This document shows positions 52,463 to 64,000 of a stretch of DNA of 64,000 nucleotides, piece by piece; within the stretch, counting starts at the first letter, position 1; each line of letters starts with the position of its first letter. The stretch lies in contig NZ_CP106738.1 in NCBI RefSeq assembly GCF_025639885.1, positions 1,302,001 through 1,366,000 of the forward strand, given 5' to 3'. The stretch comes from Roseovarius pelagicus (GTDB lineage: Bacteria; Pseudomonadota; Alphaproteobacteria; Rhodobacterales; Rhodobacteraceae). The position numbers and the translations under genes are program-made. The notes below the pieces were generated by a model, which saw only the letters and a program-made list of their open reading frames with translations, was not told the DNA's origin and searched no databases.

Positions 52463-52840
52463 ATGACCACTTGGATAACGATCTGCGACACCTGCAAGCG
52501 CGACGATTGGCATGAGCAGACCCATCAGCGCCCCCATGGCGAGGATCTGGCGGAACTGGTCGAGGTGGCGGCCCAAGGACGTGGCGTGCGTACCCGCCGG
52601 GTGTCATGCCTGATGGGGTGCAAGCATGGTTGCAATATCGCGATACAGGCGCAGGGCAAGCTCGCGTATACGTTGGGCGATTTCCTACCCGATAGAGAGG
52701 CCGCAGCGGCCATCGTCGATTATGCCGAAATGCACGCGGAGAGCGACACAGGTCGGGTGCCGTTTCGGGAATGGCCACAGGGGGTCAAAGGACATTTCGT
52801 GACCCGCCATCCACCCCTGCCGGATACGGACGACGCCTGA
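52463..52840 (+). CDS. DUF1636 family metal-binding protein (first copy)
   Basis: 125 residues. ITICDTCKRDDWHEQT supplies CxxC and VRTRRVSCLMGCKHGCNIAIQ supplies three more Cys, giving the spacing of a thioredoxin-like 2Fe-2S ferredoxin; GKLAYTLGDFLPD and PFREWPQGVKGHF follow. DUF1636 proteins are linked to cobalamin loci in Alphaproteobacteria. It is 14 bases upstream of cbiB, and a paralogue lies beside cobW at 63.4 kb. Confidence 0.85.
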   Translation: MTTWITICDTCKRDDWHEQTHQRPHGEDLAELVEVAAQGRGVRTRRVSCLMGCKHGCNIAIQAQGKLAYTLGDFLPDREAAAAIVDYAEMHAESDTGRVPFREWPQGVKGHFVTRHPPLPDTDDA

Positions 52841-60284: not shown

Positions 60285-61544
60285 ATGAAGATCATCGTTA
60301 TGGGCGCAGGCGTCATTGGGGTCACAACGGCGTATTATCTGGCCAAGCAGGGTGCCGAGGTCGTCGTGCTCGACCGTCAGGCCGGGCCGGGGTTGGAGAC
60401 CAGCTATGCCAACGCGGGCGAGCTGAGCTATGGCATGACATCGCCTTGGGCCGCGCCGGGCATTCCGATGAAGGCCGTAAAGTGGATGTTTATGAAGCGG
60501 CGACCGCTCTTTATCTGGCCATTGATCAGCCCGACCATGTGGAAATGGTGCGTGCAGATGGTCCGCAACTGCAACGAGGACGCCTACCGCCTGAACAAGG
60601 GGCGCATGGTCCGCGTCTCGAACTATTCGCGCGATGTAATGCCGGATCTGATTGCCGAGACAGGCATCGATTACGAGGGGCGCGAACAGGGTACACTGCA
60701 ATTGTTTCGCACGAAGAAGCAACTGAAGGGGTCGAAGGCGGATCAGGACATTCTGGCTGAATACGATTCGCCATACGAAGTGCTGGACCGGGATGGCTGT
60801 ATCGCCGTTGAGCCGGCCCTGGCCGAAGTGAAGGATAAATTCGTGGGCGGGTTGCGCCTGACCGCAGATCGCACCGGCGATTGCCGCCTTTTCACCATCG
60901 CGCTGGCCGAGAAATGCGCCGAAATGGGCGTCGAGTTCCAATACGGCCAGTCGATCCGATCCATCGCCATCGAAAATGATCAGGTAGCAGGCGTCGACAC
61001 CGAGATCGCCGGACGGATTACCGGCGACGCCTATGTTTGTGCGTTGGGCAGTTATGGCCCGCGCGTGTTGAACCCGATCGGGGTCAAGCTGCCGGTCTAT
61101 CCGGTCAAGGGATATTCCGTGACGCTGCCCGTGACCGAGGATCAATATGCGCCACAATCGACAATCATGGACGAGACCCACAAGGTCGCGATCACCCGGC
61201 TGGGCGACCGCATCCGTGTCGCCGGCACAGCAGAGATTGCAGGATTTTCCAACCGTCTGGGCCCGCACGCAACCGACACCGTCAAGCATGTGATCAGCGA
61301 TCTGTTTCCACGCGGCGGCGACATCTCGCGCGCGGAAGGCTGGACCGGCCTGCGTCCGATGACACCCGATGGCACACCAGTGCTGGGTCCGTCAAAATAC
61401 AGCAACCTGTTCCTGAATACTGGCCATGGCACACTGGGCTGGACGATGGCCTGCGGGTCGGGCCGGGCCGTGGCTGACGTGGTGCTGGGCCGCACGCCCG
61501 AAATCTCCTTCGACGGACTGACGGCGGACCGCTACGCGCGCTGA
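60285..61544 (+). CDS. dadA: D-amino acid dehydrogenase small subunit
   Basis: 419 residues from the ATG at 60285, with AGGAGG at good spacing. It begins KIIVMGAGVIGVTTAYYLAKQG (FAD-binding), has PGLETSYANAGELSYGMTSPWAAPGIPMKAVKWM, ITGDAYVCALGSYGPRVL, GYSVTLPVTED, and the C-terminal EGWTGLRPMTPDGTPVLGPSKYSNLFLNTGHGTLGWTMACGSGR. It deaminates D-amino acids (D-alanine) to 2-oxo acids, passing electrons to quinone. It is divergent from smc across a 292-base spacer and is followed by the cobalamin riboswitch. Confidence 0.94.
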   Translation: MKIIVMGAGVIGVTTAYYLAKQGAEVVVLDRQAGPGLETSYANAGELSYGMTSPWAAPGIPMKAVKWMFMKRRPLFIWPLISPTMWKWCVQMVRNCNEDAYRLNKGRMVRVSNYSRDVMPDLIAETGIDYEGREQGTLQLFRTKKQLKGSKADQDILAEYDSPYEVLDRDGCIAVEPALAEVKDKFVGGLRLTADRTGDCRLFTIALAEKCAEMGVEFQYGQSIRSIAIENDQVAGVDTEIAGRITGDAYVCALGSYGPRVLNPIGVKLPVYPVKGYSVTLPVTEDQYAPQSTIMDETHKVAITRLGDRIRVAGTAEIAGFSNRLGPHATDTVKHVISDLFPRGGDISRAEGWTGLRPMTPDGTPVLGPSKYSNLFLNTGHGTLGWTMACGSGRAVADVVLGRTPEISFDGLTADRYAR

Positions 61545-61605
61545 TCAGGGTCGCTCCACACCCGCGCCGTGTCGGAATCGTCCTTGACGCATTCGCGGGG
61601 GCGGG

Positions 61606-61816
61606 TCATACCAGAGGAGCTAAGGTTCCCCAAAGACGCAAAGCGTCCGGGGATGAATTGGGAATGAAGTGACGGTGGACCCATGCAGGGCGCCCAGTCT
61701 TCAGCCGCCCCCGCGACTGTCAGCGGTGAGCCCCTGCCATATGCCACTGAACCCCACTCGGGGGTTTGGGAAGGCGGCAGTCAGGTGATGACCCGCAAGC
61801 CAGGACACCAGCCCTA
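61606..61816 (+). ncRNA. Cobalamin (B12) riboswitch upstream of cbtB
   Basis: Conserved blocks appear in the right order: GGTTCCCC near 61624, GGGAATGAAGTGACGGTGGA, CCCCCGCGACTGTCAGCGG near 61710, the B12 box GCCACTG at 61743-61749, GGGAAGGCGGCAGTCAGG, and GATGACCCGCAAGCCAGGA near 61787-61804. A separate hairpin (CGCCTC 61831-61836 with GAGGCG 61843-61848) directly precedes the AAGGAG ribosome site of cbtB. It is probably part of the expression platform. B12 binding should shut off the cobalt genes downstream. Confidence 0.95.
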
Positions 61817-61864
61817 GCTTGGTTCAAACGCGCCTCGGGTGAGAGGCGAGAAGGAGACGACAAT

Positions 61865-62029
61865 ATGACTGCACTGGTTCAATCCGCCGCAAAATCCACT
61901 GTCCTGCCCGCGATCATGGCGCTGGGTCTTGGGCTTGGCATCATCACAATCGCTGGTCACGTTCAGGCATCTGCCCTGCATGACGCAGCCCATGATGTGC
62001 GCCACGCCACCGGCTTCCCCTGCCACTGA
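61865..62029 (+). CDS. cbtB: Cobalt transporter subunit CbtB
   Basis: 54 residues with one transmembrane helix (about 14-34, LPAIMALGLGLGIITIAGHV) and a C-terminal His-rich end HDAAHDVRHATGFPCH. This matches the CbtB pattern of one helix plus a histidine metal motif. AAGGAG is 8 bases upstream. It lies directly under the B12 riboswitch and is followed by cbtA 120 bases later; that gap holds a GCAGCAA/TTGCTGC dyad near 62095. Confidence 0.93.
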   Translation: MTALVQSAAKSTVLPAIMALGLGLGIITIAGHVQASALHDAAHDVRHATGFPCH

Positions 62030-62149
62030 CAGAGATCCGCATTCTATCTGACGACAGATCGAATGCTGTGTGCAGATAACGTCTGAAATCCGTGCAGCAA
62101 TTTTGCTGCCGATCAGCCGTTACTGCCAGCTAATGGGACTATTGAAACT

Positions 62150-62830
62150 ATGTTTTCCAAGATTGTAACCAGCGCATTGTTCGCTGGTTTCTGTGCTGGG
62201 CTGATTGCCGCCCTCGTGCAGATTGTATTCGTGCAGCCTGTGCTGCTACATGCCGAACTCTACGAGGGCGGCGATCTGGTGCATTTTGGTGCTGATGCCG
62301 TCAGCGCGCATCCAGACCTTGGTGGTTTTGACGTCATGCGCAACGGGCTGTCTGTGTTGTTCATGGCGCTGACCTATGTGGGCTATGCGTTCATTCTGGT
62401 CGCCGTGATGAGCCTTGCGGCAGAGCGTGGCGCAGTGATCAACACGCGCACTGGTCTGATCTGGGGTATCGCGGGCTTTGTCACATGGCATTTTGCGCCG
62501 GCCTTCTCATTGCCCCCCGAAGTGCCGGGCGTGGCCGCAGCGGATGTGTTCGTTCGTCAAATCTGGTGGTGGGGCACAGTGGCGGCAACCGGCGTTGCGC
62601 TGGCGCTCATTGCATTCGGACGTTCCGCCCTTGCGTGGGGCGCTGCGATCGCGCTGCTTGTCGCACCGCATCTGATCGGCGCACCGCATCCCGACAGCTT
62701 TACCGGGCCGGTTCCTCCCGAGATCGCCGCACTCTTTGCGTCACGCGCGCTTGGCTTCGGCTTTGCCACATGGGTGGCGCTGGGGGGCCTCTGCGGGTAC
62801 TTCTGGCAGCGCGAGAACGCGAACGCCTGA
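62150..62830 (+). CDS. cbtA: Cobalt transporter subunit CbtA
   Basis: 226 residues with about five to six helices. FSKIVTSALFAGFCAGLIAALVQ, VQPVLLHAELYE, RNGLSVLFMALTYVGYAFILVAVM, GLIWGIAGFVTWHFAPAFSLPPEVPG and VAPHLIGAPHPDSF fit CbtA, the membrane component of the putative cobalt uptake pair. The conserved HFAP and PPE-PG segments are present. Control by the upstream riboswitch is likely as part of the same message. Confidence 0.93.
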   Translation: MFSKIVTSALFAGFCAGLIAALVQIVFVQPVLLHAELYEGGDLVHFGADAVSAHPDLGGFDVMRNGLSVLFMALTYVGYAFILVAVMSLAAERGAVINTRTGLIWGIAGFVTWHFAPAFSLPPEVPGVAAADVFVRQIWWWGTVAATGVALALIAFGRSALAWGAAIALLVAPHLIGAPHPDSFTGPVPPEIAALFASRALGFGFATWVALGGLCGYFWQRENANA

Positions 62831-62886
62831 GCAATTAGTGTCCCGGCGGCCAGGCTGCCGGGACATGAACTTTGAGGGAGGCAGCC

Positions 62887-63402
62887 ATGCCCAAGACCTT
62901 CATGTTTCTGATCATCGGCCTCTTTTTCGGTGCCGGGTTCGGGTTTCTTCTGGCCGCCACGTCGGGTGCGGAGCTGACAGGGCACGCGCATGGCACGGAC
63001 GCCGCGCATGACCATAACGCCCATGACCACGGCGACGGGACGGGCGACATGGATGCTGACCACGCGATGCATGGCCAGTTGGTCGAGGCCGAAGCGCCGG
63101 TGCCCGACCTGATGCTACATGTGCTGCCCGACGGTCCGCAAAGCCGCAATCTGCATATCATGGTCAGCAACTTCGTCTTTGCGCCGCAAAACGTGAATGG
63201 CGGCCATGTGCCGGGTCAGGGACACGCCCATGTCTATGTGGACGGTGTAAAACAACCACGCGCCTATAGCCCCTACGTCCACCTACAGGCATTGCCCAAG
63301 GGCACACATGAGATTCGCGTCACGCTGAATGCCAACAATCACGGGCAGCTTGCGGTAGATGGCGTAGCTTTGACTGCCGAAACCACGATCACCATCGAAT
63401 GA
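62887..63402 (+). CDS. His-rich membrane-anchored periplasmic protein in the cobalt block
   Basis: 171 residues from the ATG at 62887, after GGGAGG. An N-terminal helix (FMFLIIGLFFGAGFGFLLAA) anchors or exports it. Next comes a His/Asp-rich stretch (about 37-65: HAHGTDAAHDHNAHDHGDG then DADHAMHG) that should bind metal. The C-terminal beta domain (about 75-171) has LHIMVSNFVFAPQNVNGGHV, GQGHAHVYVDGVKQPRAYSPY and GTHEIRVTLNANNHGQLAVDG, resembling cupredoxin-like YtkA or metal-chaperone folds. A periplasmic cobalt-binding partner for CbtAB is the natural inference. No specific family name is certain. Confidence 0.8.
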   Translation: MPKTFMFLIIGLFFGAGFGFLLAATSGAELTGHAHGTDAAHDHNAHDHGDGTGDMDADHAMHGQLVEAEAPVPDLMLHVLPDGPQSRNLHIMVSNFVFAPQNVNGGHVPGQGHAHVYVDGVKQPRAYSPYVHLQALPKGTHEIRVTLNANNHGQLAVDGVALTAETTITIE

Positions 63403-63406
63403 CCGT

Positions 63407-63736
63407 TCAGGCAGGCACCCGGCCGATCAGGCAATGGCGCAACCGCCCTGCCCCGCGCGCATCCTCGATCCAGCCATCGGCGCTGGTGGCGTACATGCGA
63501 GCAAAGGCGACGAGATCGGCCAGATCAGTAGCAGGCGCGACATCACCAAACAGATATGTCGCCTTGGCCGGAGCTTTGAACGCAACGCTAAGCGGGCGGG
63601 CGCAATTCGACATGCACTCCCAATCGCGCACGTCATATACCAACTCTGCCGTCGCCAATGCACGGCGCACGGCCCCTGCAAACCCCTTGCCATCCGCTCC
63701 GTCGCACGTAGAACAGATCACGATCTGGTGCGTCAT
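63407..63736 (-). CDS. DUF1636 family metal-binding protein (second copy)
   Basis: 109 residues starting MTHQIVICSTCDGADGKGFA (CxxC), then VRDWECMSNCARPLSVAFKA (two further Cys) and YLFGDVAPATDLADLVAFARMY. It follows the same Cys layout as the copy at 52463 but is shorter and clearly diverged. It lies on the opposite strand to both neighbours, convergent with the His-rich gene and divergent from cobW, 72 bases away. A 2Fe-2S or cobalt-binding role is possible. Confidence 0.83.
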   Translation of the reverse strand: MTHQIVICSTCDGADGKGFAGAVRRALATAELVYDVRDWECMSNCARPLSVAFKAPAKATYLFGDVAPATDLADLVAFARMYATSADGWIEDARGAGRLRHCLIGRVPA

Positions 63737-63808
63737 TGCCGCCTCTCCTTTGGGGTATGGCCTAGGCGATCCCCAAAACCCACGCAAGCCCCTCTGAGGA
63801 GCCACCCC

Positions 63809-64000
63809 ATGCAAGCCAAAATTCCCGCCACAGTCGTCACCGGTTTTCTTGGTGCGGGCAAAACCACGCTGATCCGACACATGCTGGAAAATGCCAAGGG
63901 CCGCCGCATCGCGCTCATTATCAACGAGTTTGGCGATCTCGGCGTTGATGGGGATATCCTGAAAGGCTGCGGCGACGAAACTTGCAGCGAGGATGATGTG
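63809..64000 (+). CDS. cobW: CobW family cobalamin biosynthesis GTPase, N-terminal part (cut by window end)
   Basis: The frame runs off the window after 64 residues: MQAKIPATVVTGFLGAGKTT contains the Walker A, followed by LIRHMLENAKGRRIALIINEFGDLGVDGDILKG and CGDETC. This is the COG0523/CobW opening; the GCxCC metal site would follow outside the window. CobW proteins deliver metal, here presumably Co(II) to cobaltochelatase. GAGGAG precedes the ATG. Confidence 0.93.
   Translation, partial: MQAKIPATVVTGFLGAGKTTLIRHMLENAKGRRIALIINEFGDLGVDGDILKGCGDETCSEDDV

Follow-up and report, generated by a model that had tools for sequence, protein, structure and literature searches.

A histidine-rich protein in a riboswitch-led cobalt locus of Roseovarius pelagicus, a candidate periplasmic helper of cobalt import

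Genes and leader of the cobalt locus

We analysed a 64,000-nucleotide stretch of DNA (the window) from the 4.27 Mb genome of Roseovarius pelagicus (contig NZ_CP106738.1, forward-strand positions 1,302,001 to 1,366,000). Its 3′ end, 61606–64000, carries a module in which a cobalamin (B12) riboswitch leads the genes cbtB and cbtA and the gene of a histidine-rich protein, which we call HRP; a gene for a DUF1636 protein and the beginning of cobW follow. The riboswitch aptamer (61606–61830, plus strand) covers the full RF00174 model (positions 1–189) and scores 114.9 bits against a gathering threshold of 31.5. The cbtB gene (61865–62029, plus strand) encodes 54 amino acids with one membrane segment, as judged by eye, and a His-rich C-terminus; it reaches 74.6 bits in PF09489, for which the cut-off is 27, and 58.6 bits in TIGR02459, under the cut-off of 64.4. 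The 226-residue product of cbtA (62150–62830, plus strand), the probable cobalt permease subunit, is above the cut-off in both curated models (PF09490, 153.6 bits; TIGR02458, 234.7 bits). HRP (62887–63402, plus strand), defined by alignment and belonging to no Pfam family, has 171 residues, among them 16 histidines and no cysteine, and is 99% identical to the HRP of Pseudohalocynthiibacter aestuariivivens RR4-35, the nearest named record that we met.

The arrangement of riboswitch, cbtB, cbtA and HRP on one strand is thus as a first-pass annotation of the window had described it. That annotation continued the series to DUF1636 and cobW, and both genes do follow HRP, but DUF1636 lies on the minus strand (63407–63736). 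The riboswitch transcript can therefore hold cbtB, cbtA and, presumably, HRP, but not DUF1636. No terminator-like site was found in 61400–64000.

The aptamer is followed by an expression-platform hairpin (61831–61848, plus strand; stem CGCCTC/GAGGCG, loop GGGTGA) placed directly before the cbtB ribosome-binding site and folding with a z-score of −2.9 (from 61832). In each of the 16 leaders compared, those of the window and of 15 loci of the same family, cbtB is preceded by a hairpin whose loop carries the motif TCGGGT and whose stem varies; seven hupE leaders in this comparison are built differently. The conservation of the hairpin ahead of the ribosome-binding site suggests that cbtB is controlled at the level of translation, with a predicted response to B12. 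A second, strong stem-loop of 13 base pairs without a T-run is found by folding between cbtA and HRP (62838–62866, plus strand) and could determine in what proportion the two proteins are made.

Rodionov reportedly described CbtAB as being under B12 riboswitch control in 2003. CbtAB (PF09490/PF09489) is a predicted cobalt transporter whose cbtB and cbtA genes lie beside cobalamin genes (PMC2667541), as they do here. Elsewhere it is termed known (PMC2773004), or CbtA is termed predicted while the hupE/ureJ genes of Roseobacter are counted as nickel transporters (PMC4771312). HRP is an extra member of the locus that differs from the described systems: our literature searches, at the level of abstracts and passages, returned no paper that treats HRP or DUF1636 in cobalt import. 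The HRP family, its linkage, the exchange of the permease ahead of a retained HRP and the separation of DUF1636 from CobW, all described below, are new.

HRP beside CbtAB, beside HupE and on its own

In a survey of 149 genomes of the family, in which only CbtA matches above the cut-off were counted (45 loci in 44 genomes; one match below it, in G033, was excluded) and in which some cbtA loci finish near a contig end, HRP was present in 40 genomes (44 matches). Eighteen of the 45 loci have it directly 3′ of cbtA, with a gap of 26–149 bp, and these cbtA-linked proteins occupy ranks 1–17 and 19 among the 44 HRP matches. At all 18 loci, cbtB, cbtA and HRP share one strand, as found with tblastn, and RF00174 lies upstream of 16 of the modules, namely that of the window and 15 of the 17 others (the exceptions being loci L014 and L021). 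Scanning GTDB at one genome per species gave 556 confirmed relatives. Among the best 80 loci of these 556, a selection in which close relatives dominate the counts, 66 have the order cbtB-cbtA-HRP. The linkage recurs outside the family, in G189 f41 and G213 f65, in Thalassospira and Stappia records and in a Methylobacterium metagenome-assembled genome (MAG). HRP is therefore no chance neighbour of cbtA. It is not widespread either: matches to the HRP profile were found in 11 of 240 genomes of the class, five of which have it beside CbtA, across four families (that in G225 is short and near a contig end), and in 12 of 398 genomes of the phylum. The co-occurrence of HRP with cbtAB in other genomes, the absence of which the first-pass annotation would have counted against its own proposal, is clear, and a metal-catching helper of cobalt import remains the best reading of this protein.

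The annotation had more narrowly made HRP a metal catcher for CbtAB. The linkage at 18 of 45 and 66 of 80 loci agrees with this, but the 14 GTDB loci without cbtAB show that the association is not restricted to that permease. At seven of them (L052, L064, L067, L074 of Roseovarius litoreus, L075, L078 and L120) a gene for a HupE/UreJ-like permease comes next after the riboswitch, and HRP after that; HupE (PF04955) is above the cut-off in the two that were scanned, at 105.6 and 105.5 bits, and the remaining five were assigned by likeness. The genes cobW and cobN come next in six of the seven, with a GNAT gene between them in five, while L075 ends inside HRP. Searches of six HupE-type genomes, some of them draft MAGs, detected no CbtA, which together with the retention of HRP at these loci rules out that HRP is specific to CbtAB. 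A predicted cobalt-type HupE and hupE genes 3′ of B12 riboswitches were already known (PMC2667541, PMC2211319), and a HupE under riboswitch control, as described here, suggests that cobalt, not nickel, is the likelier substrate of some Roseovarius HupE proteins. On a 114-domain tree the label HupE requires four changes, at least three of them forced by well-supported branches, though such changes may amount to one gain and losses; the HRP of L120 (Alexandriicola) groups with cbtA-linked HRP, apart from the Roseovarius proteins. A general need for HRP beside HupE can be ruled out, as in the family survey all nine of the closest HupE orthologues lack HRP within about 1.5 kb.

The other seven loci without cbtAB (L056, L065, L070, L076, L081, L083 and L091) carry HRP with no riboswitch above the cut-off and no adjoining permease among the listed open frames. 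L091 retains cobW, GNAT and cobN. In the remaining six, GNAT alone stays beside HRP, and their genomes encode a distant CobN elsewhere (39–45% identity). In four of these six Roseovarius genomes the only cbtA lies elsewhere and has an HRP of its own directly downstream, so that HRP accompanies cbtAB there and remains where the cobalt genes have left. The ratio of non-synonymous to synonymous substitution rates (dN/dS) of HRP is 0.095–0.256 in nine cbtA pairs, 0.158–0.252 in two HupE pairs and 0.130–0.235 in four orphan pairs, three of which come from one trio (one further orphan pair had no finite dS and was excluded). The low ratios in the HupE and orphan pairs indicate that HRP is under purifying selection in places where CbtAB does not adjoin it.

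Anatomy and putative function of HRP

HRP can be divided into three parts: (i) a membrane anchor, identified by eye at residues about 8–24, with a glycine zipper formed by G11, G15 and G19, (ii) a His/Asp arm (residues 33–62) of little fixed sequence, and (iii) an unnamed C-terminal domain (residues about 70–171) with the invariant histidines H113, H115 and H152. Conservation was counted in alignment columns, in place of regular-expression motif counts, which overlook some true motifs. The columns comprise 99 rows from the linked, HupE and orphan groups (85, 7 and 7, respectively) and 17 unlinked relatives; duplicates and fragments (L035, L036, L042, L045, L046 and L090) were left out of both the counts and the tree, and the tree was also built without L005 and the short L075. 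G15, G19, H113 and H115 are found in all 99 rows and G11 and H152 in 98, while the arm histidines vary more (H33 in 87, H35 in 82, H41 in 77 and H62 in 94). The 17 unlinked relatives keep H113 (16), H115 (16) and H152 (17), with H62 in 11 and H33 in four; G15 is replaced by other residues throughout, and G11 and G19 are each present in 10. At least four histidines within the 50 residues N-terminal of the domain occur in 97 of the 99 rows versus 2 of the 17 relatives. Since the three domain histidines are kept in unlinked relatives too, they look like the metal site of the domain, a candidate site at this stage, whereas the glycine-zipper anchor and the His arm look like features of the cobalt branch.

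The C-terminal domain is covered by no Pfam family, and the HRP profile matches no PDB entry up to an E-value of 10. The first-pass annotation had called the domain cupredoxin-like, a label for which the sequence offers no support: no cupredoxin family appears among Pfam matches of 61 aligned members up to an E-value of 0.1 (the HMMER filters drop most weaker ones), and the cysteine-free HRP of the window offers no Cys for type-1 copper ligands. DUF4399 and DUF2846 match few members, under the cut-off where scored. DUF4399 (PF14347) also figures in the UniRef names of some relatives, and 4 of the 61 members match it weakly; the best match, however, has 19.7 bits against the Pfam cut-off of 28 (P0059), and the HRP of the window has none. 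A lead comes from the periplasmic PCu(A)C copper chaperones (PF04314), behind whose domain an HRP-type domain is fused in unlinked relatives: of eight HRP-domain proteins scanned, two carry a PCuAC domain above the cut-off ahead of the HRP domain (L024 and L038), and L030 and L034 do so below it. The HRP of the window differs in having no PCuAC domain in the Pfam scan and in its location in a cobalt locus. These fusions point to a periplasmic metal-binding domain that was recruited to cobalt. In another unlinked relative, L040, the HRP domain is followed by a further stretch that matches no Pfam family. L024, L030 and L034, with their PCuAC-like N-terminal part, adjoin a frame containing GVDVGGTFTD, which we take to be like hydantoinase-type proteins.

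Combining these observations, we hold with moderate confidence that HRP faces the periplasm, binds cobalt and helps B12-controlled import without being tied to one permease. In the model that we propose, scarcity of B12 would cause the riboswitch to permit translation of cbtB, cbtA and HRP, and CbtAB would act as the cobalt permease of the inner membrane. The single glycine-zipper helix would anchor HRP in that membrane and leave the His/Asp arm and the C-terminal domain on the periplasmic side. The arm could gather Co(II) at low affinity and the three invariant histidines could hold one ion, which would be handed to the mouth of the adjoining permease, CbtAB here and HupE in several relatives. 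From there, cobalt would reach CobW, known as a Co(II) supplier (PMC7689651), and the CobNST chelatase. A parallel can be drawn to the nickel/cobalt importers of the energy-coupling factor (ECF) type, where several types of partner occur beside a nickel/cobalt permease (PMC2667541); the permease is of another type, and the likeness of its accessory parts to HRP is one of function, drawn by analogy rather than by sequence comparison. CbiN, NikN, NikK and NikL, the parts in question, are small and membrane-anchored, a build that HRP appears to share.

Several observations count against such a helper. At 27 of the 45 family cbtA loci no HRP match adjoins, so CbtAB manages without HRP elsewhere, and five of the nine HupE orthologues mentioned above sit in the order riboswitch-hupE-cobW, yet lack HRP. 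Conversely, the persistence of HRP in six Roseovarius loci without an adjoining riboswitch (above the cut-off), permease, cobW or cobN indicates that its job may exceed this import route. Proteins related to the domain favour copper over cobalt, the proposed topology of periplasmic arm and domain was judged from the translation by eye, and, on the side of the permease, extra CbtAB is reported to have given no faster growth in cobalt-limited Methylobacterium (PMC2773004).

Some of these observations would suit a cobalt buffer or detoxifier, which keeps free periplasmic Co(II) low while the importer is induced and feeds nothing to it. The little fixed sequence of the His-rich arm and the seven loci that keep HRP without an adjoining permease fit this explanation, as does the toxicity that cobalt import can have: CRISPR interference with cbtB improved the growth of Methylococcus in 1 µM cobalt, in its authors' reading by relief of toxicity (PMC13108547), an observation that we also count in favour of the helper. 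A riboswitch upstream, however, should open at B12 shortage, when uptake is wanted, and an invariant three-His domain on a fixed anchor exceeds a simple sponge; we therefore give the buffer a small chance. We see a smaller chance still that the metal of HRP is a different one, copper or zinc, and that the protein owes its position in a cobalt locus to history. The PCuAC domains of unlinked relatives and the survival of orphan HRPs without adjoining cobalt genes speak for it, but in four Roseovarius genomes the cbtA found elsewhere again has HRP directly 3′, and the linkage recurs in lineages outside the family. Alternatively, HRP could belong to the permease complex as a third subunit with a structural role, held by its glycine-zipper helix and delivering no metal of its own. 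This would explain why it directly adjoins cbtA and why G11, G15 and G19 stand in 98–99 of the 99 rows while G15 is lost in the 17 unlinked relatives, but we give it the smallest chance of the three, given that HRP is kept under similar selection with the unrelated HupE or with no local permease and is missing from 27 family cbtA loci.

Going beyond a cobalt-binding helper, HRP may be the first of a dedicated family of periplasmic cobalt chaperones, a portable, permease-independent feeder whose domain is shared with copper-chaperone fusions and which serves CbtAB and cobalt-type HupE in marine alphaproteobacteria; we offer this as a tentative possibility, doubtful as yet. An extracytoplasmic protein conserved through permease exchange provides a direct handle on how cobalt at the trace levels of seawater is captured outside the inner membrane, and on whether periplasmic cobalt chaperones exist. 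As a marine Rhodobacterales species provides an alga with B12 (PMC8831719), the step of cobalt capture bears on marine vitamin exchange.

DUF1636, CobW and further genes

The DUF1636 protein of the locus (109 amino acids; PF07845, 75.4 bits) carries the cysteines C8, C11, C41 and C45 in a CxxC and a CxxxC motif, and all four are invariant in 19 aligned DUF1636 proteins, including a second copy of the window. This copy (52463–52840, plus strand; PF07845, 98.2 bits) is of another type; it lies just ahead of a cobD/cbiB-like gene in an apparent cobalamin cluster at about 45–54 kb, the genes of which were named from their translations. PDB entry 9jn8, 'ORF378', scores 43.9 bits to the second copy and 18.9 bits (E 0.018) to the copy at 63407–63736, and may be a structure of a DUF1636 protein. 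With its four invariant cysteines DUF1636 resembles the thioredoxin-like [2Fe-2S] ferredoxins, a fold proposed for it in PMC4520260, but its cluster and redox role are predicted only.

Of cobW, the first part lies in the window (63809–64000, plus strand) and the complete gene at L003:5810–6889. It matches PF02492 with 194.3 bits and TIGR02475 with 514.3 bits (cut-off 332.1), and its translation contains the CxCC motif as NGCICC. The first-pass annotation had paired DUF1636 with CobW, a pairing that the GTDB loci speak against: by profile, 57 of the 66 cbtA-bearing loci have DUF1636 but none of the 14 others, seven of which carry cobW. We therefore do not retain CobW as its partner. As DUF1636 tracks CbtAB, a cytosolic role beside CbtAB is likelier than one with CobW, although the count, and with it the Fisher test applied to it, is weakened by the kinship of the loci. 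At least 24 of the 45 family cbtA loci (12 with HRP and 12 without) have a DUF1636 gene no further than 3 kb away; the DUF1636 matches considered were those on a contig that also carries cbtA. A tie to CbtAB is called into question by the survey of the class, in which no more than 4 of 50 CbtA genomes have the two genes within 3 kb of each other; the link is thus mostly limited to Rhodobacterales. We regard DUF1636 as a probable iron-sulphur or metal protein of thioredoxin-like type that works in the cytosol on the CbtAB side, and at which step of cobalt import it would act is a matter of guesswork. The window differs in this respect from nine Sulfitobacter loci (L079, L082, L084, L087, L093, L099, L101, L108 and L118), where a plus-strand DUF1636 gene continues the series cbtB-cbtA-HRP and is followed by cobW.

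Beyond the window, cobW is followed on its 3′ side by a GNAT gene, cobN and cobO. The GNAT acetyltransferase gene often occurs between cobW and cobN (L003:6867–7346 and many of L047–L126) and also stands beside HRP in the six Roseovarius loci without local cobW and cobN (L056, L065, L070, L076, L081 and L083). The genome has a second B12 riboswitch at L004:5329–5532 (G000:C2:81328–81531), 3′ of which lie a 92-residue open frame without a Pfam match (L004:5662–5940) and then an acetyltransferase-like frame.

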